The position numbers were made by a program, and so were the translations under genes. From Arenicellales bacterium (GTDB taxonomy: Bacteria > Pseudomonadota > Gammaproteobacteria > Arenicellales > JAJDZL01): a stretch of 64,000 nucleotides of DNA. Positions 28,433 to 51,130 of the stretch are shown here, piece after piece (position 1 is the stretch's first letter; each line of letters begins with the position of its first letter). Under the pieces are notes generated by a model that had not been told where the DNA came from, did not search any database, and saw nothing but the letters and a program-made list of their open reading frames with translations. The stretch is taken from contig OY282380.1 of NCBI GenBank assembly GCA_958295885.1, positions 3,410,001 to 3,474,000 of the forward strand. The letters run 5' to 3'.

Positions 28433-29096
28433 ATGCCAGATTTTTTATCACACAAACTAACTGAACCGAACTGACATTGAGCAAATGTTGCCAGCATCTC
28501 TCAAAAACCTGAAGTGCATTTTCCGTGAATGCCAACTTTTGGTAAAGTATGGGCGAATGATGGAATTCTCCTCCTCATTCAATCGATTCGTCATTGCAGT
28601 CGAATTTCAGACTGTTCCGCATTCTTTTTTTATTTTCTCATAAATCGATAATCTCTTAAATATGGAATTCAATGAAATGCATTACGCTGCTTGGCAGAAT
28701 GTTCGCCTTGAAAAAATCAAAATATTTGATTGATCTTAAACGTTGAAGAAAGCGATTGCATAGAATGCACCTTCTCAACTCTTGCAAATATTTCTTGACT
28801 TTTGCCTTCAGGGACTTGGAAAAAACCAACTCGGCCAGCAATTTCAGTATCTCCACTGGATTACGCTACGGAGTTGTCTGGAGCACCCGCGATTCAATTT
28901 CACATGTTTTCATGAATATGGAAGCATTTGCCGGCGGCAAAACAAAATGAGGATGCTGCAAACCGGCAGCAACAATATATACGAAAAGACTTTGACTCCA
29001 AGACAAGCAAACTAATGGGGGATTAGCTATAGCATGCTTTGCGGTTTTGCAACATGTTTGCAGAACAATGGAATGAGGACACAGACAACCGTAAAA
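28433..29096 (+). other. low-coding region without a supportable gene
   Basis: Short overlapping frames around 28756-29015 exist in two phases but none has a ribosome-binding site, a family motif or a steady codon pattern. The stretch may contain the remains of a coding sequence. No RNA gene or strong promoter is apparent. Confidence 0.4.
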
Positions 29097-29530
29097 ATGA
29101 AATTTTTTGGCGCGTTTGACAGCGACAGTGAATGGACGAACTTTATGGTAAAGAATGATGATTCATTCCTAAGTAGGCTAGCGAATTGCATGGAATTCGA
29201 GATTCACAGAGAAATTTATTATTTGGATGTTGTGTACTGCAAAAAAGAGAACAGGATAAATTCCTTTTGGGTCATCCTGATCATGTATATCCGAACTGTC
29301 TGCATGCGGTCGTCGAACATGAAAACAACAGTAAAAGTGTTCGCGAGGAAATGTATGCCTTGCTCAGGGTTCTGTTACCTCTCAAGGTGCTGATTTTCTA
29401 TGATTACGACGAATGGACTAAACTTAAAACTCAAAATCATACTGAGTGGTTGGATGAAAAATTTGCCAGCTTATTTAGCTTGGGCAAAGCAGTGCGAGAC
29501 GCTTGGCCGGAATCAGAAGATTCGGAGTAG
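29097..29530 (+). pseudogene. frameshifted hypothetical gene
   Basis: Two overlapping frames join into one plausible protein. The first (from ATG 29097) reads MKFFGAFDSDSEWTNFM and runs to YLDVVYCKK. The second continues REQDKFLLGHPDHVYPNCLHA through to the stop at 29530. They meet at a run of six A (29241-29246); one additional A would restore a protein of roughly 145 residues with a charged, aromatic C-terminal half. I do not recognise the family. Either a real single-base loss or a sequencing error in the homopolymer. A second possible phase change near 29100 could extend the N-terminus. Confidence 0.5.
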
Positions 29531-29543
29531 AATTACCTGCTGT

Positions 29544-29902
29544 TCACTGTTTGGCAGCCAGGCCGAGCAGTCCGGTTTCATCTAGGACTTCATACACTTG
29601 CTGTTTGATGAACTCGGTATCCGTTTTCAACATCGCATTCTCTTTCAAAAACTCGACATCGGATTTAAGAACGGCAACGTCGGTTTTAAGGGCAGTGAAG
29701 TCGGTTCTAAGAACGGTAGAGTCGGACTTTAGGAGGGCGACTCATCTCTGATGTCTATCATCAACACCACGATTGCAATCATCGCAGCACCGAAAATCGA
29801 AACAATCCAGAAAAAATATTTTTCCCGGATTCGATTTGACGCTTCAAGTGCTGTAACCCTGTGTTCGGATTGCAACTCGTCGCATCTTATTACATATTCC
29901 AT
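29544..29902 (-). pseudogene. membrane-anchored coiled-coil gene, copy 1, frameshifted
   Basis: Starts (minus strand) at ATG 29902, MEYVIRCDELQSEHRVTAL, then a basic RIREK and one membrane helix WIVSIFGAAMIAIVVLMI. After DIRDE the frame ends in SPS-stop, but the other frame continues a coiled coil with LKSD/LRTD/LKTD/LKSD heptads and ends in VLDETGLLGLAAKQ. Compared with copy 2, one T is missing near 29743, causing the shift. There is no start codon for the second frame. No family is recognised. Confidence 0.65.
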
Positions 29903-30010
29903 GTAATTCCTCAATACAACATGAATCAAATCAACTGCGCGGCTTCGTCCTGTCGAATCTCTTCGATGAACAGCTGTCCGGATTGCTTGATCTGTCGCAG
30001 CTGAGTGCGG

Positions 30011-30175
30011 AAGCATATCACACTGATTGTGGAGGACACACTCCCAAGTAGTGTTGCGTCTGATGCTCCGCGGAATGAACCGCTGGGATTACGGTTAATC
30101 TGTCTTTACAATTCCAGTATGGATAATCGGCCGAGTAGCATTGCCAATTGTTCACTGTTTGGCAGCCAGCTCAAG
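30011..30175. repeat. diverged duplicated block (partner at 31289-31436)
   Basis: The sequence beyond the 3' end of coiled-coil copy 2 matches that beyond copy 3: shared words include TCACACTGA, CGTCTGATGC, CCGCGGA, TTAATCTGTC/CTAATCTGTC and TTCACTGT. A short part of the same block also lies at 29523-29550 beside copy 1. The duplication unit therefore included more than the gene. Confidence 0.6.
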
Positions 30176-30492
30176 CAGTCCAGTTTCATCTAGGACTTCA
30201 TACACCTGCTGTTTGATGAACTCGGTATCCGTTTTCAACACCGCATTCTCTTTCAAAAACGTGACATCGGTTTTAAGGTCAGTGACGTCGGTTTTAAGAA
30301 CAGTAAAGTCGGACTTTAGGAGGGCGCGACATCATCTCTGATGTCTATCATCAATACCACGATTGCAATCATCGCAACACCGAAAATCGAAGTAATCCAG
30401 AAAAAATATTTTTCCCGGATTCGATTTGACGTTTCAAGTGCTGTAACTCTGCGCTCGGTTTGCAACTCGTCGCGTGTTACAACATTTTCCAT
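30152..30492 (-). pseudogene. membrane-anchored coiled-coil gene, copy 2, frameshifted
   Basis: Same architecture as copy 1: MENVVTRDELQTERRVTALE, RIREK, the helix WITSIFGVAMIAIVVLMI, DIRDDVA, then LKSD/LKTD heptads and the tail VLDETGLLELAAKQ. Here the frame is broken by two additional bases (a CG duplication near 30329). Both copies therefore lose the frame at the same junction through different indels. Restored, the protein would have about 113 residues with a cytosolic head, a single membrane segment and a coiled-coil tail. Confidence 0.65.
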
Positions 30493-31412
30493 GTCATTCC
30501 TCAATCGAATGTGGTTCCACAGGTCAACTCTCTCTTCCGAGTTTCGTTTACACCGAAAGGTTGATGAATTCGGAACCTGAACCTCGTTCGCTAAACCAAG
30601 CCTTACTTGACTTAGCTTTTATGCTGAAGTCTCCGCACTTGAAGTTTCTTGCGACCGTCCCTCGCTCCTATAGTTATGCGAAGAATTTTTGCACACCCTG
30701 TAGTATACAGTGATTTTGGTGCCAGCAGCTTGCAGAACCAGTTTTTGCCTAATATCACAAATTAATTCGCCTAGAGGAGGTTTGGTGGTGGAAAAATTAA
30801 ATCTTTCCACCGCTATTGATGAGCAAGTTCGAGAACATTCTCAAATTCTTCAATTTCCAAGTCCGGTACAGCGGATTCCGTCGGTTACTCTTTACGCTCA
30901 GCAGGATGGGAAAGCTATGCAGTAGAAATCTGAGAATCCATTTTTATAACGAACCTTGTCGACTTGACAGCAAGAGCAGTAGTCGAGTGAAAGGAATCTG
31001 TCACTTCGCTGGAAGAATTGTCAGATTGTGATCCGGCAACGTTGGAGGTCAGCAGCATTTTTCGCTAGGTAGTCGGTTGCTAACACTCCTTCGGGAGAAG
31101 TAGACGCATGCCTCATATTGGGTTCCGAAATCTTCACCCTGTCAGTGAATCTGAATTGCAAGAGAGTGCTCCTTGGATTCTAGAATCTCCAAAATTGCTC
31201 AATCTATGAAAAGAGGCCACTTCACTCATCATTGTTCAATGATGCCTAAATCTCTTGATTCTGAGGAAGTCCACAAAATAATGCAGGATAGCATGTCACA
31301 CTGACTGCGCAGGAAATACTCCCTGCAGTGATCGTCTGATGCCCCGCGGAGACTGCGGCTAATCTGTCATTGCAATTCCATTTTGAATGAATCCGAGTAG
31401 AATTACAGCTGT
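30493..31412. other. decayed region between coiled-coil copies 2 and 3
   Basis: No convincing gene. A weakly structured segment near 30690-30790 resembles 31665-31770 (both hold CTGTA-N3-TACAG and a GCAGAACC/GCAGAATCC word), so another element was duplicated here. Short frames exist but lack family motifs. Confidence 0.4.
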
Positions 31413-31592
31413 TCACTGTCGAGCTGCCATGTCGAGCAGTCCGGTTTCATCTAGGACTTCATACACCCATTGCTTGATGAACTCGGCATCCGTTTTCAAC
31501 ACCGCATTCTCTTTCAAAAACGCGACGTCACTTTTAAGAACGGCAACATCGTTTTTGAGAACGGTAAAATCAGACTTCAATTGGGCAACATC
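31413..31592 (-). pseudogene. membrane-anchored coiled-coil gene, copy 3, N-terminally truncated
   Basis: Only the coiled-coil half survives: DVAQLKSDFTVLKNDV, further LKSD heptads, LKENAVLKTDAEFIKQ and the tail VLDETGLLDMAARQ. It shows the undisturbed junction DVAQLKSD that supports the reading of copies 1 and 2. Upstream sequence no longer matches the membrane-anchor part. No start codon or ribosome site is seen. Confidence 0.6.
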
Positions 31593-32630
31593 GAATGTCT
31601 TGTTTGGCCTGTCTTTATTCTGATATCGAATTTTTAATGTCCCTCAGACGTTCAACGTATTTCTAGCATACTCTGTAAAATACAGTAACTTTGGGCGGTC
31701 GTTCGCAGAATCCGTTGCTGCTAAATATTGCCAGTTAGTTTACTGGGTCACTTAAAAACAGATCGAGAAATTATTCAATGCCGTTGGATTGGGACAAAGA
31801 GAAGGGCCAAATATGAGAACTTGAGCAGACAATTACAAAGTCACACATTCCTGAAATTTTTGAAATCCTGTGTTAGTCTCGGGAAGAGTTAATTCTTTCA
31901 CGTGCAGAAGTCGCAATAAAATAGAAAAAAACGGAAGAGGATATTGCAGCTGGAGAAACAGGATGAAATTCGCGAAGCCAAGTTATGTTCGATTGGAACA
32001 GTCAGCCTCCACAGTTTATCCTCGGCCAATCGCTCTGATCTTTATTCTAAACCCAGCCGCTGGAGAACCTACTGAAGAAATGTTTCATGCTCTACCACAT
32101 CAGGAACTAGAAAGCATTCTCATAAAAAAATCGCTTCCTTCTGCAAAAAGCCAGAATTCTTGATCTTTGTCTTACGAATTTCTTGTATTTAAAGACTCTT
32201 TTAAAGAACTAGAAAAAAATCGAAGTCGCAATTTCGGTTTTTGTTTGTATGAGCGATATCGCTCGATTATCTTCGGCAACATCGATGACTTCAGCGTAAA
32301 TATGGCTCGTGGACATCACGGGAATCGCAAATTTATTTTGAGGAATCTTGAAGATTACCAACTTTTAGACTCGAACATTTACAACCAAAAAGTCATGCGG
32401 CGGTCGAATTGAGCAGATAGTCGACAAAGTGGGATGAAAATTTAGATCTAAACAATGTTGCACAATCAGGAGACTGGTAGACATCTACCGGATTTTCGAA
32501 CTACAGTCATAGTCGAATATCGATTGAACAGGCAGCGGACTACTTTGCCATGAAAGTGAAAAATGTCACTGTCTTGGAATACAAACTTTTGGAACTTGGA
32601 GTTTCTGGGAAATGAATCTTGAGATTAAAC
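31593..32630. other. low-coding region upstream of mcrC end
   Basis: Two short plus-strand frames (31963-32163 and 32167-32412) and a trailing one ending at about 32613 could be scraps of one or more genes; none shows a family motif or a good ribosome site. I see no RNA gene. Taken with the neighbouring pseudogenes, this is probably decayed sequence. Confidence 0.35.
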
Positions 32631-33878
32631 TCAAAAATTGTTTTTAACAATGTTATCGAGTGTTTTGGGGACACTGCTTAAATTTCCAACATCAACTGTC
32701 GCTATGTCTACGACGACATCCGAACTAGACGCCCGCCAACGACGGTGAATTGAATTTGATTTTCCTAAGTCTTTATGCCATGGATATAGAAGAATTACCC
32801 GCTTAGATTCGTACGCTTGAGCATACACAAGAATTTGGTAAATATCGGATATGTTTATTCCCATTTGGTCAGCATTGGGTTCGAGGCGTTTCCACTTTGT
32901 ATCAAGAATGATTGTGTTTTGCTGTGACCCGATCACTGCATCTGGGCGCAGGCTGAAAAGAGAATTTCCATTTTGTTTCAACGCAGATCGCTTCTGCTGC
33001 TGTAAGAATACTTCGTTGCCTTGGGGTTGCAGAACTCGTTTTAGAGAATTTCCAATATACTTTTCAAACAAGTCATTCATTGGAAACAACAAAGAAAATC
33101 CTTGTGTTGAACCGCTTTTCGTACTTTGCCACAGATCATCCAGAAAAACGAGAGCAAGGTTGAACAGAATTCTATAGGCTGTATTGGTTCGATCAAAATG
33201 AACGAATTTAAGGAGAGAATGCGGGTCGGTCGCGTCACTCACTTGTTCAAACCGTGTCTCGAGCTCCCTCAATAGCCGATAATTCGTAAGTGATTTGGTA
33301 TTTCTGGACAGACGCAAGATTATCGCCTTAAAGATACGATTCAGTGGTGTGTCTACCGACAAGTTGTCAAAACCACAGGCGAGGATATCTGGTCGAACTG
33401 CAAGATGGGTTAGCTGACGCGCAACGTTTAATTTTCCTCGCAACAACCGAAGGTCTTCTCTATAGTTAACATAGCGACGGGACAGACCGCGATGAACTTG
33501 AGCAACCAGTTTCGTAGCGAAAAGTTGAGTGACGATTTCGAGGAGATTATAGCGTTGGGTATCCAATGCCGCGAGTTCACCGTCTGCTACTTTGAGATCT
33601 TTCGCAACATTGATCATTCGAACAAGTGCTTTACGGACATTTTCGTCTTTGTCGTCTATTTTAGGCAGTATTTCAAGAGTATGGCTAGGCGTGGACAGCA
33701 CTCCTACTACCTGACCTGCTTTTAGTCCATGGCTGGTACGAGCTAAAATAGCATTGCTATTTAAATTCAATCGTTTAGCCGAGCGTTCAGCATGAATTTG
33801 AAATTGCTGAAGATTACGCTCCGTAAGCCTGTGATCTACAGCAGGAAGTGTTTGCCACTCCCGACAGGTAAGGATCAT
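32631..33878 (-). CDS. mcrC: McrC-family restriction endonuclease subunit
   Basis: 415 residues, the nuclease partner of McrB. The N-terminal half has the family pattern (GVLSTPSHTLEILPKID, LRLLRGKLNVARQ). The C-terminal PD-(D/E)xK site is visible as RPD313 and LD326-x-K328 (ILDTKWK), followed by ISDIYQILVYAQAY. It starts seven nt after the McrB stop, so the two are translated together. In this system McrB recognises modified DNA and, with GTP, drives McrC cleavage. The gene appears intact. Confidence 0.92.
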   Translation of the reverse strand: MILTCREWQTLPAVDHRLTERNLQQFQIHAERSAKRLNLNSNAILARTSHGLKAGQVVGVLSTPSHTLEILPKIDDKDENVRKALVRMINVAKDLKVADGELAALDTQRYNLLEIVTQLFATKLVAQVHRGLSRRYVNYREDLRLLRGKLNVARQLTHLAVRPDILACGFDNLSVDTPLNRIFKAIILRLSRNTKSLTNYRLLRELETRFEQVSDATDPHSLLKFVHFDRTNTAYRILFNLALVFLDDLWQSTKSGSTQGFSLLFPMNDLFEKYIGNSLKRVLQPQGNEVFLQQQKRSALKQNGNSLFSLRPDAVIGSQQNTIILDTKWKRLEPNADQMGINISDIYQILVYAQAYESKRVILLYPWHKDLGKSNSIHRRWRASSSDVVVDIATVDVGNLSSVPKTLDNIVKNNF

Positions 33879-33884
33879 AACTGC

Positions 33885-36041
33885 CTAGCTCAGCTCAGGC
33901 TTAGATGCAGAAATTTTTCCATTGATAAGGTGTTCGTACGCATTCTTGTCAAAATCACTTCTCACCCTCCACTGATAACGATCATCAACGTGATCATATT
34001 GGACGTTATCAAGGCCTGGAGGCATGCTTAATTTTGTTCTTTCCAAGAACTGGTTTCCGCCGCCAAGTACAGCGTGAATTTTTTGCCAGTCCTCGACAAA
34101 GTATTCCGCAATCAGAGGAATGATATCCTGCCGCATTATTTCATCAACATCCGACCTCTCTTTTGCCTGCATAAACCAAGCATGGCCGATTCTATGATCT
34201 CGGTCAAGGAACCATTCCAAACGAGCATTAATGACGTCTAATACTTTGTCCAGTTCGACTCCGGTTTTATTGGCATAAGAGACTAGAAGCGAGGAATTGG
34301 GTTCTAGTTCTTCGAATTTGAAACGTCGACGCAGTGCGGTGTCTAACGAGGTGATGGAACGGTCGGCTGTGTTCATGGTCCCAAGTATGTACAGATTGGC
34401 TGGCAGACTGAACTCTTCTTGAGAGTACGGCAGAGTCACGGTAACTTCGTTTTCTTTGCCTAACCTTTTGTCCTCTTCCAAGAGCGTAACAAGTTCTCCT
34501 AACACTTTGGAAACATTAGCGCGGTTGATTTCGTCAATTATTAAAACATGTCGCTGATTCTCAGACTTTCTCGCATGTTTAGCCATGTGCTTGAGGATGC
34601 CATCTTTTGTCACGAGCCGAAAACCGGAAGAGTTCTCCTTGTCATCATTGGCTGAATTGGTTTCAGGACGCAGGCCCTCAACGAACTCTTCATATCCATA
34701 TGATTCATGGAAAGTCACGAACATGACTCGATCTTTTTCGACAAGTTCGTTATAGCGGGACTTATTGTCGTCATTAGAAAGTCCTGTAACGCCATCGCAA
34801 ATTTTAACGGAACGTCTGATGGCAGTGAAAGTTTTTCCAGTTCCTGTGGGACCATATAGAATTTTGTTGAGTGGATGAACGATGTCGGGTATAACATCAT
34901 CGTCATCAATCCTTACACCTAGAGTGTTCAGCAACTTAAATGTGTTCCAATACGCTTCAGAATTTCTAAATGCTAGAAATGTCTTTGAATTGACATTTAC
35001 TTTACCAAAGCTGGCTTGTTCTGTCGCACTATCCAAGCTGCTTGCTGACTTGTTTATCCAAACTACATGAATCCTAAAATTTTTGTCGAATCTTCCATTC
35101 GAATCATATTCGTTGTCTAGAACGACACCGATTCCTCTGCCTTTTCGCTGTCCATGTCTTACTAAAATAATATCTCCTGTTTTCGGAGTTGTAGCTGGAT
35201 CTGCTTTTTCGGCCATGGAGCGACTCAGATAGACAAAAGAGTTTACCTTGAAAGTCAATTGATCATCGGTGTTATTTTCATTCGCTTCCCAGCAGTCTCG
35301 TCCATCATTGTTGATATCAGTGCTAATCTGATAGAAATTTGAGTTACTTGTGACAAGTTCCTCGCTTGCTTGCCAGTACAAGAACAGATTAATTTCGTAA
35401 AAGTGGCATCGTGGGAAATAATCCTTTATTTTCTTAATTGTGTTTTGGTATTCTGCATAACCATTTTTTTCAATTCTGTGTTTCAATGCATCAGAGTCAC
35501 GAATGGAAAATAAATTCGCTATTGGATTTAAATTTTTATCTATGCCAAGAAAATTCTTAGGGTTTATTAGAAAAAGAGTTTGTGTCAGATTAGCTACCCC
35601 TACCCCGGTTATTGCTAACACCGCACCAAATAGCTGAGGGTCAATCTTTTTGTTTCCTTGAACAGCCTGACCGAGTAGCCCCCAAAGCAACTTCGGTCGG
35701 AAGATTTCACCATTGTGAAACAGAACACTAGCTCTAGCAACAGGAATCGGAAATATGAGAATTTGGTCTGAAATTCTTTCGCTCGACAACTCAAAAACAT
35801 TGTGAATACTATCGTACACTGGCTGAACTTGATGTGTCGTATTCTTCTGAGCGAGAAAGTAAATGAAGGAAAATGGGTCAATATTTTCATCTCCAAACAT
35901 TAGAAGAGGGACTTTATCCTTTCGCTTGATCCAATTTACATTTTTTGATTTCTCAATCAAATACGACTTATCATTTTCAGAAATCTTATTTACCAGTTCA
36001 TTGAACCACGGAACCCAAGTGTAATATTTGCCGATTTTCAT
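33885..36041 (-). CDS. mcrB: McrB-family AAA+ GTPase, restriction subunit
   Basis: 718 residues. AAA+ motor: Walker A GPTGTGKT at 397-404, Walker B LIIDEINRA near 500, the McrB signature MNTADRS at 556-562, and the arginine-rich TALRRRF after it. The N-terminal 390 residues differ from E. coli McrB: first a segment with IDPFSFIYFLAQ, the DPF-type motif of many McrB relatives, then around 270-340 a beta-rich part (GDIILVRHGQRKGRGIGVV) that may be the DNA-specificity domain. First gene of a two-gene operon with mcrC. Function is DNA defence against modified or foreign DNA; the target is unknown. Confidence 0.93.
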   Translation of the reverse strand: MKIGKYYTWVPWFNELVNKISENDKSYLIEKSKNVNWIKRKDKVPLLMFGDENIDPFSFIYFLAQKNTTHQVQPVYDSIHNVFELSSERISDQILIFPIPVARASVLFHNGEIFRPKLLWGLLGQAVQGNKKIDPQLFGAVLAITGVGVANLTQTLFLINPKNFLGIDKNLNPIANLFSIRDSDALKHRIEKNGYAEYQNTIKKIKDYFPRCHFYEINLFLYWQASEELVTSNSNFYQISTDINNDGRDCWEANENNTDDQLTFKVNSFVYLSRSMAEKADPATTPKTGDIILVRHGQRKGRGIGVVLDNEYDSNGRFDKNFRIHVVWINKSASSLDSATEQASFGKVNVNSKTFLAFRNSEAYWNTFKLLNTLGVRIDDDDVIPDIVHPLNKILYGPTGTGKTFTAIRRSVKICDGVTGLSNDDNKSRYNELVEKDRVMFVTFHESYGYEEFVEGLRPETNSANDDKENSSGFRLVTKDGILKHMAKHARKSENQRHVLIIDEINRANVSKVLGELVTLLEEDKRLGKENEVTVTLPYSQEEFSLPANLYILGTMNTADRSITSLDTALRRRFKFEELEPNSSLLVSYANKTGVELDKVLDVINARLEWFLDRDHRIGHAWFMQAKERSDVDEIMRQDIIPLIAEYFVEDWQKIHAVLGGGNQFLERTKLSMPPGLDNVQYDHVDDRYQWRVRSDFDKNAYEHLINGKISASKPELS

Positions 36042-36440
36042 TTCGTTGCTCCAATTGGTTTAGTGCTGTTTTTCGAGATTGTTTTCCGTCAAGAATTGTG
36101 TGTCAGTTATAGGCAGATGCCATGCTTGAGGAAGGACTAGAAAGAAACGGCGGATCCATTGAAATGCAGACTCACAACATTTGCAGATCAACCAGAATAG
36201 GTGTGTCACTACGGACTAGAATAACGTAATTTCATTTGAAAAACAATAAGTATCAGCAATTGTAATGATGGGAGTGCATTCATTTCATTCTCCAATTAGA
36301 GCGTGATTTCAGTTCAGGTCGAGTGAAGGCAGGCACACGCAGCAACCGTAAAATTATGAAAGGATCAGTTGATGAACTTCAGGATTTTGATTTTAGGAAG
36401 GCGTAGGATCTGCCTTTGGTTGAATCGATTCAGAACTGAT
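36042..36440. other. intergenic region between mcrB and the Slam gene
   Basis: About 400 nt upstream of mcrB and downstream of the Slam-like gene, AT-rich. It should contain the mcrBC promoter on the minus strand but I could not single out a good -10/-35 pair. A small plus-strand frame at 36369-36572 overlaps the Slam gene and has no support. Confidence 0.4.
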
Positions 36441-37784
36441 TCAGAATACGCGGGAAATGTTGATGTTCAAGCCCTGATTCCGATATTCGTTCACTGGAAT
36501 ATTCGACTGATTTCGCTCATAGACATAGCTGAAGGCAGGTACGAATCCTCTATGCCGCAATGCTCGATGTGAGAAACCGACACTGAAAATGAACTGCTTA
36601 TCCAAACGTCTCACGCCGAACAGTGGATCTTTCGCTGCGTGTCGTTTCCTGTGAAAAGAAGGATTCAGTGCAATTGATAAACCGCTCTCAAAAGATTTAT
36701 TGAATCCGAACCCGATTCCGACAACCTGCATTTGGTGATGTGCGCTCTTCGCCCCGATGAGTTCCACTTTAGGCTCTACTCCAATCAGGGTCCGATCATT
36801 GATCGCAAAATTGAAACGGGGAGCAAATGAAATCTGAGATCCATCCCGATAGGTTTGGGTATCGTACTTTCGATATTCCACACTTATGGGAAATTCGAAC
36901 TCGACTGACCTAGACAACTGCCAGCGCATCTGAGTCCAAATACCAAGACTCTGACGGAAGCGCTCGCCTCCAATCCACTGCCAGCCGAACCGAAATCCTT
37001 CCGACAGGCTTCTTCGTCCATAATGATGCGACAGTCCAATATCCGCGGCAACGGTGACGTCGTTCCATTCGGAGCGCTCATAGATTTTCGCGGCCCCAGA
37101 GATCGCGAGCAGGCCGCGAAGATTGGAGGAGATGTTTGGCGAGTGCGACACGCCGGCAGAAACCAGACCGCCCACGCCCGAAGACGGTCTTGAATCCTGG
37201 TCCAGCTGAAACGGCAGGCCACCGATTGAAACGACTTTAAGGTCCGAACGCCTTAACGTATTTGATTCTGGCAGCACGGAAAAAGAAAAGGAAGCTGACC
37301 ATGGCTTGCGGGCGTCAATCTGCCGAAGAAATTCCACGACGGCAGATTCGACCGAGAGCGGAAGATTTTCCGTGAGTGATGTTTTGAAGTGGAGTTTTGC
37401 CTTCTTGTCGATTCCCAAGGCGTAATAGGCGGCGGCGAGTTCCAGCTGCACACGCGTCAGGTCAGGACGCCGTTCAAGTATGGCCTCGAATCGCTCGGCA
37501 GCATTTTGCGGCATCCCAAGACGCATTTCGATGCGCCCGAGCAGGAACAGGCGTTCAGTCCATTCTTCTTCATTCTGAGGCCGCGCACGTTCGAGGAAAA
37601 CATGCGCGTCCCGCAGCCTGTCGGCCGCGATCAGCAGCCGTGCAGCCTGCAGATCCGTAATCTCAATGTCAGCAGAAGTGGACGGATTGTCCGAATCTGC
37701 ATGTACCGCAGCAGCGAAAAGAAATATGATCGCTGCTGCAGCACGCACAGCAATACGACAAGAAAGTCTTTTATTCAGCCTCAC
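36441..37784 (-). CDS. Slam-type outer-membrane protein (surface lipoprotein assembly modifier, DUF560)
   Basis: 447 residues from GTG 37784. This start gives a clean signal peptide (MRLNKRLSCRIAVRAAAAII, cleaved near VHA-DS); a TTG at 37811 would add nine residues. Residues about 50-150 form TPR repeats (LFLLGRIEMRLGMPQNAAERF, LELAAAYYALG), then a beta barrel of alternating strands ending NINISRVF with a terminal phenylalanine. This is the plan of Slam proteins, which move lipoproteins to the cell surface. The gene overlaps the 3' end of the large repeat lipoprotein by 14 nt, marking that protein as its likely client. Confidence 0.85.
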   Translation of the reverse strand: MRLNKRLSCRIAVRAAAAIIFLFAAAVHADSDNPSTSADIEITDLQAARLLIAADRLRDAHVFLERARPQNEEEWTERLFLLGRIEMRLGMPQNAAERFEAILERRPDLTRVQLELAAAYYALGIDKKAKLHFKTSLTENLPLSVESAVVEFLRQIDARKPWSASFSFSVLPESNTLRRSDLKVVSIGGLPFQLDQDSRPSSGVGGLVSAGVSHSPNISSNLRGLLAISGAAKIYERSEWNDVTVAADIGLSHHYGRRSLSEGFRFGWQWIGGERFRQSLGIWTQMRWQLSRSVEFEFPISVEYRKYDTQTYRDGSQISFAPRFNFAINDRTLIGVEPKVELIGAKSAHHQMQVVGIGFGFNKSFESGLSIALNPSFHRKRHAAKDPLFGVRRLDKQFIFSVGFSHRALRHRGFVPAFSYVYERNQSNIPVNEYRNQGLNINISRVF

Positions 37785-40700
37785 GGCTGCCGCCGAACCA
37801 GCCAATTCCAACCGAATTTGAGGTTGACGTAGTTTTGATCACACCGCCAACTTCCTGCGCCGCTGGACCGTAGAATGCACCAGACATTTCACCACTAAAT
37901 TCATCCGTCGCACCTGTTACTTCAAGATTTGCACTGAACTTGTTTCCATCAATTGTGCCGTCGCTGATAACCCCGTTGGCGTTTGGGACAGAAATGAAAG
38001 AACTTCCGGCATTTCTTCTGTATTCGATTTCATCTATCGAGCCACGAATCGTATTTTCCACGAAATTAGCTCTCAAGCTAAGATTGCCTTTCGTTGATGC
38101 TCTATCACGAAAATTCAAACAGCAGTCAGTCCAAGAATCGATCCAGGCTTTGCCCAAATAGGTGGCTCTACCACTTGGAATATTATCGACATCTGTTTGA
38201 AGTCCATTTACAAACAGGGAAAGAGGATGCTGAGTGTCACCTAATGCACGACTTGAAAAATAGTATGAATTAATATATTTGAAATCTGGAGTCGAAAAAC
38301 CATTGCTGTTGGTCCAAATCCATTGATCGCGATTATTTGAAACTTTATTGTAACTAGAACTGGAAACTACGTCGCTGTCTTCGAACTGAACCGAATATTG
38401 AGTTCCATCAACCATATAGGTCAGGGTAATTCCGCCACTGTCATTGCTTTGTATTGACACTACTTGTGTAGAATCGTCTGAAAGTTCAACACTCTTGTTG
38501 TTGTCAGAGAAATCTCGTTTGACTGTCGCGTCTAATGGTGCGGAATTGGCTTGTTCGAGAGGACCTGTAGGATTGAATGGACTACTGCCTGTCATATACC
38601 CAAACAGAACCGCATTTCTGCGAGTGGCATTGAGAACTGCTCCGACTTCATTTGCCTGTGGTCCGAAAAACTCACCCAGAACATTGCCGCTAAACCCCTC
38701 AATACTCGCGATCACCTCATTTGAATTTTGTGTATCGCTCAAGTCAGATGAGCTGTCAGCACCCCTTAGATTTGCCAGAAATTGACCGTTTTCTATGTTG
38801 CCGGTTTCAATTATGAATCTGTTGTCTTCGAGTGAAGAATAGCTGTCGGAAGATTCTGGACGTACCCTAATTTTCGAAATTTCTCCGTTTACAGTACTTT
38901 CTCCAAAATTTGCTCTCAGAACTCCTACGCCACTTACATGCGTTCTATCCAACTGATTCGCATTTCGCCAAATTTCACCTTTCATACTCCCAACATATCT
39001 AGCTGTAGCATCCGGTAAATTTCCAGTCTTAGCGCCGCCGATGAAGTATAAACGAGACCGTTTGTTGGGATCGAGACTGCTACTTTGTCCACCGTAAACA
39101 GCAAAATACGTAAATCCGGTACGCTCGAACCAGACACCGTTGGAAAAAGGGGCGTTGTCTTCAGACTTAGACCCAAAGCTATCAAAATTTGGTAGATAGT
39201 GCTGTTTTGTATAGTGTTGAATCCATTCCTCATCATCAATCACGAACGTCACAAAATATCCACCGTCACCATCGCTTGAAATCGACTTAATCGCAGCATC
39301 CGAACTTTCCGCACTGCTTGGATCACCTGAAATCCTGTCTAACGCAGTCGTAATGGGTGCGAAAACATTTTCTGAATTTAGAATCAATTGGTCGAATGGA
39401 ATATTGTTTGCGTCGTTCGAATTTACAGTTTCATTCAGACTCTTACTCAGGCCAGTTCTAACCTGAAGAACAGGTAGCAATGTAACCGTAGGCATGCCAC
39501 CGCTGAGGTCGTAGGTGACCATCCCATCTTCCGTTGCAGTCAATCTACAGGCATAATCGCCCGACGGACATGAGATCTTGACGTTACCACGGGTTTCGGA
39601 CATGCCGGGTTGAACTGCAAACTGCCCGGGAGAGAGGCCGTGGTTCATCGGCGGGCTCAGTGTTCTGCTGGCGGCCAAAACAGTTGGCGTTCCACCTGTT
39701 GCGCTGTAACTGACACTGCCGTCATCGGCAATCATAATATTGCAGGCGCTGCCTTCAGCAGGGCACGAAAACTCGACGTTGCCACGGGATTCGGACATGC
39801 CGGGTTGAACTGCAAACTGGTCGGCGGTGAGGCCGTGGTTCATCGGCGGGCTCAGTGTTCTGCTGGCGGCCAAAACAGTTGGCGTTCCACCTGTTGCGCT
39901 GTAACTGACGCTGCCGTCATCGGCAATCATAATATTGCAGGCGCTGCCTTCAGCAGGGCACGAAAACTCGACGTTGCCACGGGATTCGGACATGCCGGGT
40001 TGAACTGCAAACTGGTCGGCGGTGAGGCCGTGGTTCATCGGCGGGCTCAGTGTTCTGCTGGCGGCCAAAACAGTTGGCGTTCCACCTGTTGCGCTGTAAC
40101 TGACGCTGCCGTCATCGGCAATCATAATATTGCAGGCGCTGCCTTCAGCAGGGCACGAAAACTCGACGTTGCCACGGGATTCGGACATGCCGGGTTGAAC
40201 TGCAAACTGGTCGGCGGTGAGGCCGTGGTTCATCGGCGGGCTCAGTGTTCTGCTGGCGGCCAAAACAGTTGGCGTTCCACCTGTTGCGCTGTAACTGACA
40301 CTGCCGTCGTCGGCAATCGTTATACTGCAGGCGCTGCCTTCAGCAGGGCACGAAAACTCGACGTTGCCACGGGATTCGGACATGCCGGGTTGAACTGCAA
40401 ACTGGTCGGCGGTGAGGCCGTGGTTCATCGGCGGGCTCAGTGTTCTGCTGGCGGCCATGACAGTTGGCGTTCCACCTGTTGCGCTGTAACTGACACTGCC
40501 GTCGTCGGCAATCGTTATACTGCAGGCGCTGCCTTCAGCGGGACACGAAAACTCGACGTTGCCGCGGGATTCGGACATGCCGGGTTGGACTGAAAACTGG
40601 TCGGCGGTGAGGCCGTGGTTCATCGGCGGGCTCAGTGTTCTGCTGGCGGCCATGACAGTTGGCGTTCCACCTGTTGCGCTGTAACTGACACTGCCGTCGT

Positions 40701-40947
40701 CGGCAATCGTTATACTGCAGGCGCTGCCTTCAGCGGGACACGAAAACTCGACGTTGCCACGGGATTCGGACATGCCGGGTTGGACTGAAAACTGGTCGGC
40801 GGAGAGGCCATGGTTTTCCGGAACCATCAATGCCATGGAGCTTATCTTTTTGGTACCCGCGCAACCAAGCAGCATGGACATGAAAATCGCAATGAGAAAT
40901 ATGGAAATATATCGACATATGTTTATGTTAATAACGAGTAGTTTCAT
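37771..40947 (-). CDS. large TbpB-like surface lipoprotein with seven 65-residue repeats
   Basis: 1058 residues. Lipoprotein signal with lipobox LLGC (Cys29). Residues 45-499 are seven tandem 65-residue units beginning NHGLTADQF and containing SCPAEGSAC (two cysteines, probably a disulfide) and DDGSVSYSATGGTPTV. The rest holds two related beta-barrel-like lobes, ending EFFGPQANEVGAVL (about 770) and AFYGPAAQEVGGVI (about 1040), the GxFYGPxAxExGG motif of TbpB-type transferrin-receptor lobes. The Slam gene overlaps its end. It is presumably a surface-exposed binding or adhesion protein; whether it binds an iron protein is unknown. Confidence 0.85.
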   Translation of the reverse strand: MKLLVININICRYISIFLIAIFMSMLLGCAGTKKISSMALMVPENHGLSADQFSVQPGMSESRGNVEFSCPAEGSACSITIADDGSVSYSATGGTPTVMAASRTLSPPMNHGLTADQFSVQPGMSESRGNVEFSCPAEGSACSITIADDGSVSYSATGGTPTVMAASRTLSPPMNHGLTADQFAVQPGMSESRGNVEFSCPAEGSACSITIADDGSVSYSATGGTPTVLAASRTLSPPMNHGLTADQFAVQPGMSESRGNVEFSCPAEGSACNIMIADDGSVSYSATGGTPTVLAASRTLSPPMNHGLTADQFAVQPGMSESRGNVEFSCPAEGSACNIMIADDGSVSYSATGGTPTVLAASRTLSPPMNHGLTADQFAVQPGMSESRGNVEFSCPAEGSACNIMIADDGSVSYSATGGTPTVLAASRTLSPPMNHGLSPGQFAVQPGMSETRGNVKISCPSGDYACRLTATEDGMVTYDLSGGMPTVTLLPVLQVRTGLSKSLNETVNSNDANNIPFDQLILNSENVFAPITTALDRISGDPSSAESSDAAIKSISSDGDGGYFVTFVIDDEEWIQHYTKQHYLPNFDSFGSKSEDNAPFSNGVWFERTGFTYFAVYGGQSSSLDPNKRSRLYFIGGAKTGNLPDATARYVGSMKGEIWRNANQLDRTHVSGVGVLRANFGESTVNGEISKIRVRPESSDSYSSLEDNRFIIETGNIENGQFLANLRGADSSSDLSDTQNSNEVIASIEGFSGNVLGEFFGPQANEVGAVLNATRRNAVLFGYMTGSSPFNPTGPLEQANSAPLDATVKRDFSDNNKSVELSDDSTQVVSIQSNDSGGITLTYMVDGTQYSVQFEDSDVVSSSSYNKVSNNRDQWIWTNSNGFSTPDFKYINSYYFSSRALGDTQHPLSLFVNGLQTDVDNIPSGRATYLGKAWIDSWTDCCLNFRDRASTKGNLSLRANFVENTIRGSIDEIEYRRNAGSSFISVPNANGVISDGTIDGNKFSANLEVTGATDEFSGEMSGAFYGPAAQEVGGVIKTTSTSNSVGIGWFGGSREAE
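39451..40815 (-). repeat. seven tandem 195-nt repeats in the TbpB-like gene
   Basis: The unit is exactly 195 nt (65 codons): the same word recurs at 39821, 40016, 40211, 40406, 40601 and 40796. Units 4-6 in protein order are almost identical, units 1-3 differ at a few sites, and unit 7 is strongly diverged and marks the array edge. In-frame, so copy number may change without breaking the gene. Confidence 0.95.
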
Positions 40948-42434
<1,487 letters not shown>

Positions 42435-47898: not shown

Positions 47899-48300
47899 AA
47901 GAATGTAACCTCGATAAAATCAAATTAACGAAATAAAGCCTTCACACCACGAAAACTTTTCCAAAAATCTATTGTAGTTAATATAACGGCTGTTGGCAAA
48001 AAATCAAGAGCTCTGAAGGTTTTCAGGGGTCTGAGTTTATATGTGTTTTAATCCAGCAGTCTAATTGAAAAATCATTGATTTGGTGAATGAACAAAGACT
48101 TCCATCTACTATTTTACTACACATAACTCCTTAACCCAAATCAGCAATTTTAAGAGAGGCAGTTGCGCTGTGGAGATTTTCATGACGGTTAGGAATTTAC
48201 TGAATGCAAGGATACAGGGTCGGAGTCTCTCACAATCGTTCATTTGACGACTCCTTTGTCGCATTGACGGAGTTCTGGCAATTTTTATAAAATTAGTCCT
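47899..48300. other. intergenic region between BI-1 gene and vapB
   Basis: About 400 nt between divergent genes. It ends with the vapB promoter described separately. The rest is AT-rich and shows no gene. The promoter of the BI-1 gene must lie in the left part but is not obvious. Confidence 0.4.
48264..48291 (+). promoter_or_regulatory. strong sigma70-type promoter of vapBC
   Basis: TTGACG at 48264-48269, a 16-nt spacer, TATAAA at 48286-48291. Transcription would begin about 48298-48300, next to the ATG at 48301, leaving no room for a Shine-Dalgarno sequence. The vapB message may thus be leaderless or nearly so. Confidence 0.6.
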
Positions 48301-48540
48301 ATGAAAACAACTTTATACTTAGCTGATGATCTGATGCGGGATGCAGAGGAACAAGCTGCTAAGGACGGCATGTCATTGACAAAACTGATTGAATGCGCTG
48401 TGCGCGGTTATTTGGATGAGTTGAACCGAGTCAGTGAGCCAATTGAGATCCAGTTGCTGACAAAGAATTGCGGATTCATTTCTGATGCCAGTCTCGCTGA
48501 TAGAAATGCTCTCTACGCCTTGATGGAAATTCAAGATTGA
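48301..48540 (+). CDS. VapB-like antitoxin
   Basis: 79 residues. N-terminal ribbon-helix-helix-like part MKTTLYLADDLMRDAEEQAA, then MSLTKLIECAVRGYLDEL, followed by a short acidic tail that would bind the toxin. Overlaps the next gene by four nt. It should bind VapC and repress its own promoter at 48264-48291. Confidence 0.8.
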   Translation: MKTTLYLADDLMRDAEEQAAKDGMSLTKLIECAVRGYLDELNRVSEPIEIQLLTKNCGFISDASLADRNALYALMEIQD

Positions 48541-48962
48541 TTGCCGTTGATACCAACATGCTGGTTTACGCGCATCATGAAGCGTCGCCGTTACACAAAA
48601 AAGCCAAATATCAATTGACCGAGTCTGTCAATTCCTCAGTGGGTTGGGGAATTCCTGTTTTCTGTATCGGAGAATTTCTTCGCGTAATCACACATCCTAA
48701 GGTGTTCTCCAACCCTTATACGCCATCTGAAGCAATTGAAGCTCTGGCCCGGCTTGTCCAAGCACCAACACTCAAATTGCTCTATCCAAGTGCCAATTAT
48801 CTATCACTGCTTGCCTCTGCAATACGAGAAACCAATGCTGCCGGAAATCTAGTTTTTGATGCACAAATTGTCGCAGTCTGCCGCGAAAATGGAGTAACGG
48901 CATTGTTGACTGAAGATCAAGATTTTGATCGATTTCATAAATTTACTACGAAGCGACTTTAA
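48537..48962 (+). CDS. VapC-like PIN-domain toxin
   Basis: 141 residues, PIN-domain RNase. The acidic active-site residues are seen as D5 (AVDTNMLVYA), E47 (CIGEFLRV), the aspartate of VFDAQIVA and that of LTEDQDF near the C-terminus. TTG start at 48537, overlapping the vapB stop (TTGA). VapC toxins usually cut tRNA or rRNA; the target here is unknown. Intact. Confidence 0.85.
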   Translation: MIAVDTNMLVYAHHEASPLHKKAKYQLTESVNSSVGWGIPVFCIGEFLRVITHPKVFSNPYTPSEAIEALARLVQAPTLKLLYPSANYLSLLASAIRETNAAGNLVFDAQIVAVCRENGVTALLTEDQDFDRFHKFTTKRL

Positions 48963-49052
48963 CAGCCCCACAATATAGGAGAAGAACCTCAGCAAAAAAT
49001 ACCAGCAATGCTCATGAATTCGGAGTGAAAACGCCGAAGTCATCTATGCGGT

Positions 49053-49511
49053 ACGGTCGGTAAAACTGCTGTAATTGGAGTGAAAGAACGAGAATCAAAA
49101 AAGGTTAAAGCGAAGGTGATTGAAAACACCAAAAGAAATACTTTGCATGGCTTCATTGAAGGCACTGTCGAAGAAGGTTCAACAGTCAATACGGATGATT
49201 TCAAAAGTTACGAAAAGCTTGAAGGCTGTGAACATCGGACTGTACAACATAGCGTAGGTGAATATGTTGAAGGTCAAATTCACATCAATGGTATGGAATC
49301 GTTTTGGTCAATGCTCAAAAGAGTACACAAAGGCACTTACCCCAAAATGAGTAAGAAACATTTAGGTCGTTATGTTGAAGAATTTGCTGGACGGCATAAC
49401 CTTCGAGAACTGGACACAATTATCCAGATGGAACGAGTTGTTGCTGGCATGGTCGGAAAACGATTGAAATACAAAGAGCTGGTTTCTGGTGTAGATGGGC
49501 GATTGTATTGA
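49053..49511 (+). pseudogene. IS1595-family (ISXO2-like) transposase remnant
   Basis: The C-terminal half of an IS1595-type DDE transposase. Reading begins TVGKTAVIGVKERESKK (from about 49053; first possible start GTG 49080), then VNTDDFKSYEKL, the NGMESFWSMLKRVHKGTYPKM motif with the catalytic glutamate region, and ends HNLRELDT... . A complete protein would be roughly twice as long; the N-terminal zinc-finger and first Asp are absent. No terminal inverted repeats found. Non-functional relic. Confidence 0.8.
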
Positions 49512-49551
49512 AAATAAATACAGGTAAACGTCCATTGAATTAGAGATTCAA

Positions 49552-49941
49552 ATGACAGATCCAATAATTGCGGCATATAAGAAAGTTCAATACATCACTT
49601 TATTACAAGAAGCTAGACGTAGAGCACCAGCGAGATTTAATGCTGAATATGAATATAATTACTTTGAATGGTTAAAGAGATTAGATAAATCATCCAAAAA
49701 TAAAATCACTTCACACATCAAGAATTTCATTCAATACGAAAAGGGAGATAAAAAGAAGTTAGATTTAACAAGATATGAGGATTATCTTGAAGGTGAGGAA
49801 TTGTGGGAAATTAGAATTGGGATGAAATATAGAGTTTATTTTAAATACATGGATAATAAGTCCATTGTGATACTACACGGTGGGAGTAAATCAACACAAG
49901 AAGAAGATATTCAAATAGCTAGGAGACTTGGTAATGAATAA
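49552..49941 (+). CDS. RelE/ParE-type toxin, HI1419-like
   Basis: 129 residues. The C-terminal 90 residues match the HI1419 family of addiction-module toxins: FEWLKRLDKSSKNKITSHI, then ELWEIRIGMKYRVYFKY and LHGGSKSTQEEDIQIARRL. The N-terminal 40 residues are an extension not typical for the family (usual length about 100). AT-rich codon use unlike the flanking core genes. Overlaps the next gene by eight nt, as in toxin-first pairs. Confidence 0.75.
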   Translation: MTDPIIAAYKKVQYITLLQEARRRAPARFNAEYEYNYFEWLKRLDKSSKNKITSHIKNFIQYEKGDKKKLDLTRYEDYLEGEELWEIRIGMKYRVYFKYMDNKSIVILHGGSKSTQEEDIQIARRLGNE

Positions 49942-50110
49942 ACGTAAACGAATGAAATGGGATGCGGCGCTATTTCTTGAAGATGAAAGAGATAGAGCTC
50001 TCTATCTTTTTCATATTTCAAAATTTAAAAATAACGAATTGATGGAATTAGCGCGCAATGATGTGGAGCGTTCTAGAATTTTACATGAAAATAAACTAGT
50101 TGAAGCCTGA
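49934..50110 (+). CDS. short HI1420-like antitoxin, probably truncated
   Basis: 58 residues from ATG 49934. It shows KWDAALFLEDERDRALYLFH and later LMELARNDVERSRILHENK, the pattern of the HI1420 antitoxin N-terminus. The usual helix-turn-helix C-terminal domain (family about 90-100 residues) is missing, since the frame stops at 50110. So the antitoxin is probably shortened and might bind toxin but not DNA. TTG 49928 is an alternative start. Confidence 0.6.
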   Translation: MNKRKRMKWDAALFLEDERDRALYLFHISKFKNNELMELARNDVERSRILHENKLVEA

Positions 50111-50149
50111 ATGCGGGAAATTACATTAATTGGTAATTTGTTGTAGTGA

Positions 50150-50419
50150 CTCGCCGAAAAAAGAAACAAGCTATTCCGAAAGCCTGAAGAAACTGGAATT
50201 TGCAATGGTTGTGCAATGGAATTTCGATTTAAGACTTTTGAGATTGATCACATTGTTCCTCGCTCTCAAAACGGTTCAGATCACATCAGTAATCTTCAAT
50301 TGCTCTGTCCAAATTGCAATAGACGGAAAGGAAATAAGAGCATGAAAGAATTTGTTGAAATAATGAAAGCAGAAAAAGAAGCGGAATTGAAACTTTTCTA
50401 CGGACTGCACGGAAACTAA
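50150..50419 (+). pseudogene. HNH domain remnant, perhaps of a DNA methyltransferase/nuclease
   Basis: An open stretch from after the stop at 50147 reads AEKRNKLFRKPEETGICNGC, then FEIDHIVPRSQNGSDH and LLCPNCNRRKGNKS, a complete HNH core with CxxC zinc pairs. The preceding part resembles the linker of DNA methyltransferases that end in an HNH domain. No start codon exists before ATG 50216, so only 67 residues could be translated by themselves. Probably the C-terminal fragment of a lost gene. Confidence 0.6.
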
Positions 50420-50422
50420 TAT

Positions 50423-50566
50423 ATGGAAAAAAAACGAAAGACTTACAAATTACTGCAAAATAAGATTCCACAAGACGTTCACTTGAAAGCAAGACTGGTC
50501 ATGAAACGCCTACTAAATACCCCACCAGAATCCCAAAAAGAAATACTAAAAAAAAGGAAAAAGTAG
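50423..50566 (+). CDS. small basic hypothetical ORF
   Basis: 47 residues, very basic: MEKKRKTYKLLQNKIPQDVH and ending KKRKK. No recognised family. It follows the HNH remnant by three nt. Ribosome-site GGAAACTAATAT precedes the ATG. Might be a real small protein of the same island or chance in AT-rich DNA. Confidence 0.35.
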   Translation: MEKKRKTYKLLQNKIPQDVHLKARLVMKRLLNTPPESQKEILKKRKK

Positions 50567-50578
50567 CATTATGATATT

Positions 50579-50597
50579 GCTAATGACAATCATTATC
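50579..50597. promoter_or_regulatory. Fur-box-like operator, orphan
   Basis: GCTAATGACAATCATTATC matches 17 of 19 positions of the classical Fur box GATAATGATAATCATTATC. A TATAAT-like -10 lies downstream at 50628-50633. No intact gene follows on the plus strand; the next recognisable coding sequence is a degenerate IS256 transposase on the minus strand. It may be the surviving operator of a lost iron-regulated gene. Confidence 0.55.
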
Positions 50598-50789
50598 ATT
50601 TAGTTATTTCAAAGGGTTAAACAGGTATATAATTCCCTTTCAATTTTTACTTTGATCAAATTCAGGTGAGACTGTAGGACGACATCACAGTGCCACTATC
50701 CTCTGATTTTGTCCTTCTTCAAAATGGAACTGTAATGGATAAAGCATTCGTGTAGCATAGTGTGTAGGGGGAGGGTTAATCGAGTTACT

Positions 50790-50827
50790 GCGGAAACTAG
50801 TGCGCAGAGAGGAACCTAGTTTCACGC
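50790..50827. repeat. 11-bp hairpin with one bulge
   Basis: GCG-GAAACTAG (50790-50800) pairs with CTAGTTTC-A-CGC (50816-50827), loop of 15 nt. Not followed by T residues. It may be an RNA stem, a recombination site or an insertion-element end; I cannot assign it. Confidence 0.4.
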
Positions 50828-50866
50828 GGCTGCCTAGTCTAACTTGGTTACTTCATTTCCATCCTT

Positions 50867-51130
50867 AAATTACATTCCAGCGATGATTTTTCCAAGTTGC
50901 CAAAAGCCTCGTAATCAATTTCATTTTTGTTGCACTTACCGCTCCAACTTGAATGGCATCACGGTGTGATTTAATCAACCAGTTGATAATTTGCTGTGAA
51001 GTCGAATCGTAGCGAAGTTTGATTCAATTGGGTTGATGGTACGCAAATTCTGTCAGTGATTGGATGAAAATTCATAAAACATCAACAGTTCGTTTCAGTT
51101 CTGCTTCGGACACTGGCTGGCTATAGGATA
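50867..51130 (-). pseudogene. degenerate IS256-family transposase C-terminus
   Basis: On the minus strand the frame reads YEFSSNH-stop-QNLRTINPIESNFATIRLHS, matching the IS256 motif YDFPAEHW-x-HLRTTNPIES-x-FATVR, with the tryptophan replaced by a stop codon and further stops and phase changes downstream; LLATWKNHRWNV appears later. Contains the conserved glutamate. Clearly a dead relic. Confidence 0.7.

Follow-up and report, generated by a model that had tools for sequence, protein, structure and literature searches.

A Slam-type exporter and its putative lipoprotein cargo with seven 65-residue repeats and two TbpB-like lobes in an Arenicellales bacterium

Introduction

The genome of an Arenicellales bacterium carries, side by side, the gene of a TPR-plus-barrel protein and that of a lipoprotein in which seven long repeats precede two TbpB-like lobes. 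Do the two genes encode an exporter and its own cargo, and what might the repeats contribute? Most known cargoes of type 11 secretion (T11SS, Slam) come from pathogens of animals and symbionts of nematodes, and it is in their N-terminal parts that they differ from each other. The DNA analyzed here, referred to as the window, is a stretch of 64,000 nucleotides. A preliminary description of the window had proposed a dedicated surface-display system, perhaps for host attachment or nutrient capture, and had placed both open reading frames exactly where they are found (Table 1). The reading developed below, which is considered probable, is that of a T11SS pair of exporter and own cargo, in which the repeats would serve as a stalk and the lobes would bind a ligand at the surface.

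Table 1. Features of the Slam locus in window coordinates
Feature	Position	Strand	Basis
Slam / T11SS outer-membrane protein, longest ORF 456 aa	36441..37811	-	SlipAM, TPR_19; start maybe 37784 or 37748
SlipAM barrel, residues 171-456, C-terminal Phe	36444..37301	-	Pfam match
Putative surface-lipoprotein cargo gene, 1058 aa	37771..40947	-	ORF; TbpB_B_D twice
C-lobe, residues 785-1058, handle and 8-strand barrel	37774..38595	-	TbpB_B_D 1.3e-13; AlphaFold2; PDB TbpB C-lobe
N-lobe, about residues 496-783, handle and barrel	38599..39462	-	TbpB_B_D 4.6e-7; likeness to C-lobe
65-residue repeat, copy 7, diverged (58%)	39451..39645	-	
65-residue repeat, copy 6	39646..39840	-	
65-residue repeat, copy 5	39841..40035	-	
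65-residue repeat, copy 4	40036..40230	-	
65-residue repeat, copy 3	40231..40425	-	
65-residue repeat, copy 2	40426..40620	-	
65-residue repeat, copy 1	40621..40815	-	
Signal peptide and lipobox LLGC (Cys29, then Ala)	40861..40947	-	Read from sequence
Shine-Dalgarno AGGAGA	40956..40961	-	Sequence; 8 nt before cargo ATG

Identification of the exporter

Identification of the exporter relies on two Pfam domains. The barrel matches SlipAM (PF04575, DUF560) from end to end (positions 1-288 of 288; 1.2e-23; 84.5 bits against a cut-off of 22), and the N-terminal part matches TPR_19 above the cut-off (1e-6); the Slam-specific TPR_Slam profile reaches 17.3 of 35.2 bits. The chain closes with ...SRVF, which bears out the TPR-plus-barrel protein with a terminal Phe that had been described, and a gene for a TbpB-like cargo adjoins it. 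A profile search for a solved Slam structure returned TPR proteins alone among its 60 best matches. The SlipAM match, taken together with a cargo C-lobe whose fold is closest to that of TbpB, identifies the pair as a T11SS exporter with its probable cargo. The core of the preliminary description, namely a Slam, TbpB-like lobes and a pair dedicated to display, has good support from sequence, AlphaFold2 and fold search, and surface exposure would follow from it.

The two genes, of which the cargo gene lies upstream and the Slam gene downstream, had also been described as overlapping, which is true of the longest Slam reading frame (41 nt) and depends on the choice of start. In-frame candidates are TTG 37811, TTG 37805, GTG 37784 and GTG 37748; the GTG at 37784 overlaps the cargo gene, whose stop codon lies at 37771-37773, by 14 nt, and that at 37748 leaves a 22-nt gap and no overlap. 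A paralogous Slam at 1.65 Mb (L016) starts with an ATG 26 nt past the stop of its client, and visual comparison aligns the signal sequence of this paralogue with the 37748 start. A short gap is therefore as likely as an overlap, which is possible.

The putative cargo and its two lobes

The cargo contains the MLLGC lipobox expected of a T11SS cargo, in agreement with the earlier reading of the sequence. The NCBIfam profile slam_lipo (NF041636) matches the protein in two stretches with 78.6 bits, 1.4 bits under the cut-off of 80. Pfam TbpB_B_D likewise matches in two stretches (1.4e-20 for the whole protein), with the N-lobe match located at genome positions 3448599-3449009. The lobes match not only this profile but also each other (29% identity, BLASTP 8e-29), and hence arose by internal duplication.

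The C-lobe was modeled with AlphaFold2 on an alignment of 18 rows that included the N-lobe as well as 16 cargoes encoded at Slam loci. The model has a mean pLDDT of 72: the eight-stranded barrel (about residues 135-272 of the modeled piece) is mostly above 90, and the handle strands that precede it score about 50-70. Its best PDB match is the TbpB C-lobe 5kkx (Foldseek 1.4e-10), with which VIA-align superposes 204 residues at 4.1 A with a Z of 16.9. Further matches are other TbpB structures, NHBA, fHbp, LbpB and HpuA, all of which are Slam-dependent lipoproteins or proteins of the same fold. The claim of two TbpB-like lobes is thus upheld by the double Pfam match, by AlphaFold2, which had been suggested as a check, and by the fold search. 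The motif proposed for the lobe ends applies to the C-lobe, which ends GAFYGPAAQEVGG, but is approximate at best in the N-lobe (GEFFGPQANEVGA).

The repeat array

The array spans residues 45-499, with copies beginning at residues 45, 110, 175, 240, 305, 370 and 435. The unit of 195 nt keeps the frame throughout, and the seven repeats of the preliminary description are confirmed at an exact spacing of 65 as six near-identical copies and a diverged seventh. Copies 1-6 share 93-100% of their DNA and copy 7 shares 58%, which means that the array expanded recently through duplication of an older unit. The array is under purifying selection, with differences between copies that are mostly synonymous (dN/dS about 0.15-0.17). 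Two cysteines spaced seven residues apart are invariant in all seven copies, which suggests one disulfide-closed hairpin per repeat, and the unit as a whole looks folded. The AlphaFold2 model of the whole cargo, run without an alignment, has a pLDDT of 32 and is uninformative, repeats included; a rod-like stalk is therefore a guess from position.

Within the 4.42-Mb single-contig genome, the repeat is confined to the cargo gene. A single unit searched against Pfam reaches at best an E-value of 0.09 (13.7 of 25 bits), and the diverged copy has no match. Matches of the full array to Phage_depo_C, EcpB_C, DUF6033 and other Pfam families were set aside as scores summed over copies. Searches of 369 class, 109 order and 398 phylum genomes, samples that overlap one another, gave weak matches alone (E 1e-4 to 0.008 per genome). 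Three class matches (L033-L035) were read, and none lies inside a cargo: two fall in unrelated genes, apparently by chance, and the third corresponds to a hairpin with two cysteines within a protein of 744 aa (L038) that has neither repeats nor lobes. The repeat was not found in IMG/VR, the whole cargo had no match among plasmids, and the repeat profile found nothing under E 0.3 in the PDB. Derivation of the repeat from the handle disulfide hairpin of other cargoes (e.g. L018, 9757-10551) was considered and rejected, as the two share 22% identity along a short segment and cargoes showed no enrichment for the motif when scanned. Among 31 other cargo ORFs, some of them partial and cut at the ends of the fetched stretch, no long-period repeat was detected, the best self-identity at a period of at least 20 being 0.41; at period 65 the cargo described here reaches 1.00. 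Judged by its sequence, the 65-residue unit is without a credible match in Pfam, the PDB, IMG/VR or the sampled genomes.

Comparison with known cargoes

The locus resembles T11SS/Slam systems (PF04575) in its TPR and SlipAM barrel, C-terminal Phe and adjacent lipoprotein with handle-barrel lobes. It differs from those elsewhere in that the Slam is about 20-30% identical to the Slams of other genomes and no TonB or receptor genes lie alongside. With TbpB and LbpB, the cargo shares lipidation signals and two handle-barrel lobes, including the close C-lobe fold; in contrast to them, it has a repeat array, lacks a TbpA-like partner and is about 19% identical.

In published T11SS cargoes, a conserved barrel carries N-terminal effectors that vary and that include repeats (PMC12282271). 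The array had been presented as absent from TbpB, which is right for TbpB itself, but other T11SS cargo classes have one (PMC12282271). Surface proteins of Sphingomonas, with PT repeats, and of Psychrobacter, with about 12 PTD repeats, carry multiple TbpBBD domains (PMC12282271). They resemble the present cargo in the order of N-terminal repeats followed by at least two lobes and in often being lipidated, but they repeat a short PT or PTD motif, tracts of which are absent from the seven two-cysteine units described here. The Pls-like cargo of Haemophilus parahaemolyticus, whose T11SS dependence is confirmed experimentally (PMC12282271), likewise places a repeat-rich effector before the barrel; its repeats are helical and perhaps glycosylated and it has one barrel, whereas the present cargo has two lobes. 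As cargoes with N-terminal repeats and one or more lobes are already on record (PMC12282271), the class is known, and it is the 65-residue unit that is matched by nothing found. If the array is indeed a new folded repeat, it would widen the range of Slam passengers, here to a protein of 1058 residues. A cargo with perhaps seven disulfide hairpins ahead of its lobes would offer a clean test of whether a Slam tolerates folded, disulfide-bonded passengers; the understanding of the Slam system as such would be unchanged.

Genomic context

The genome harbors four SlipAM matches. A second intact pair at 2.39 Mb consists of a 448-aa Slam (45% identical) and a 264-aa single-lobe lipoprotein. At the 1.65-Mb locus (L016, 5205-8086), the Slam is 75% identical and contains an in-frame TAG, and a transposase-like insertion has reduced the client to its C-lobe (62% identical); the dN/dS between this Slam and the one described here is 0.21. 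Divergence of the L016 Slam is still mostly synonymous despite the TAG. The fourth match, at 3.386 Mb, is a broken, divergent Slam in a fragmented remnant. With two of its loci decayed, the system may be in the course of being lost from this genome.

In five genomes of the same genus, the cargo was not found; four of the five have no Slam match, and the fifth has a single weak one covering TPR residues only. The pair sits in a 13.2-kb stretch (28433-41630) bounded by dapB and the gene of a short-chain dehydrogenase, two genes that lie 85 nt apart in two congeneric genomes (L105, L106) and flank a RelE-like ORF in another (L107). The stretch holds three small ORFs, genes that read as McrC-like and McrB-like, and the Slam pair, and is a lineage-specific insertion at a hot spot for accessory genes. 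The three small genes (29540-31640, minus strand), which precede the McrC-like gene, are related to one another, encode a membrane segment and a VLKTDV-type coiled coil, and are apparently decayed. Elsewhere in the window, a region of low GC (0.36-0.39) at 48001-51000 contains a PIN-like ORF, a transposase-like fragment and a small toxin-like ORF.

Proposed role and alternatives

In the current model of the Slam pathway, lipoproteins are exported by Sec, lipidated, brought to the outer membrane and passed across it with the aid of Slam (PMC5449769, PMC8406197). By analogy, the cargo would leave through Sec, be lipidated at Cys29 and be transferred to the outer membrane, where Slam would recognize its C-terminal barrel and move it to the surface. 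The lipid anchor, the seven repeats and the two lobes follow one another along the chain and would do so outward from the cell. The position of the repeats between lipid and lobes underlies the stalk reading, in which they would raise the lobes above the envelope to bind a putative ligand. The most likely role is that of a stalked surface receptor or adhesin, and host attachment is a possible function. That the repeats are a new family of folded, cysteine-paired units, a T11SS stalk whose length is shifted by recombination and tunes the distance between lobes and envelope, is offered tentatively, as a possibility rather than an expectation.

In the converse division of labor, the repeats would do the work, like the adhesive or glycosylated N-terminal effectors proposed for Pls-like and PTD-repeat cargoes (PMC12282271), and the lobes would act as export signal and pedestal; near-identical repeats can change in number by recombination. 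This reading is nevertheless doubtful here, as the array adjoins the lipid anchor and would thus lie nearest the membrane, six almost identical copies under purifying selection are unlike a diversifying adhesin, and known adhesion domains are unmatched. Nutrient piracy in the manner of TbpB and LbpB, in which the lobes take an iron- or haem-bearing protein and hand it to a TonB receptor, would suit the two handle-barrel lobes and the TbpB-like fold, but that fold also occurs in cargoes whose ligands differ widely (fHbp, NHBA). The paired TonB-dependent receptor that characterizes TbpB proper (TbpA) is absent beside the pair; the whole 4.42-Mb genome has two Plug matches, and the closer of them is about 67 kb from the pair. 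No Fur-box-like site lies upstream, the sole one in the window being a palindrome at 50579-50597, 9.6 kb off, with two mismatches (0.03 expected in the window). The want of a nearby receptor or Fur box argues against iron piracy, so that nutrient capture, one of the roles first suggested, is unlikely in a TbpA/TbpB form.

The pair could also be a decaying remnant devoid of present function, given that two of the four Slam loci are broken, but with both genes intact, a good Shine-Dalgarno and low dN/dS in the repeats and in the Slam, this is very unlikely. The number of repeats could be an assembly artefact, collapsed or expanded, since assemblers are known to struggle with copies as alike as these (93-100% in DNA). 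Such an artefact is highly improbable in a single-contig genome whose copies are separable by site differences, with the exception of the identical copies 4 and 5.

Distribution in other genomes

A Slam alignment scan of named genomes, leaving out that of the window, found 48 loci, the majority of them gamma- or alphaproteobacterial. In about half, the Slam has a lipoprotein ORF, TbpB-like or other, as its neighbor, so the adjacency recurs in the comparison across genomes that the preliminary description had called for. Two members of the same order carry Slams (G022, G027); from their bin names, both presumably derive from marine sponge metagenomes. Three alphaproteobacterial Slam-adjacent lipoproteins (L057, 2244-3947; L060, 335-2005; L064, 2869-4854) have an Ala/Glu-rich stretch before the lobe; these stretches are probably helical and represent another solution for the stalk position. 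A search with PF01298 in the 398 phylum genomes found larger multi-lobe ORFs, the longest of which has 1754 aa and four TbpB_B_D stretches (L137). One Slam-adjacent ORF (L141, 1358-3421) joins a C-terminal TbpB lobe to a lipase-like N-terminal part with GHSLGG (Lipase_3, below cut-off) and is possibly an enzyme cargo of T11SS. Another ORF, of 1152 aa (L138, 1788-5246), combines a FecR domain with a weak TbpB lobe at its C terminus, and opposite it lies a TPR-barrel protein just below the SlipAM cut-off.
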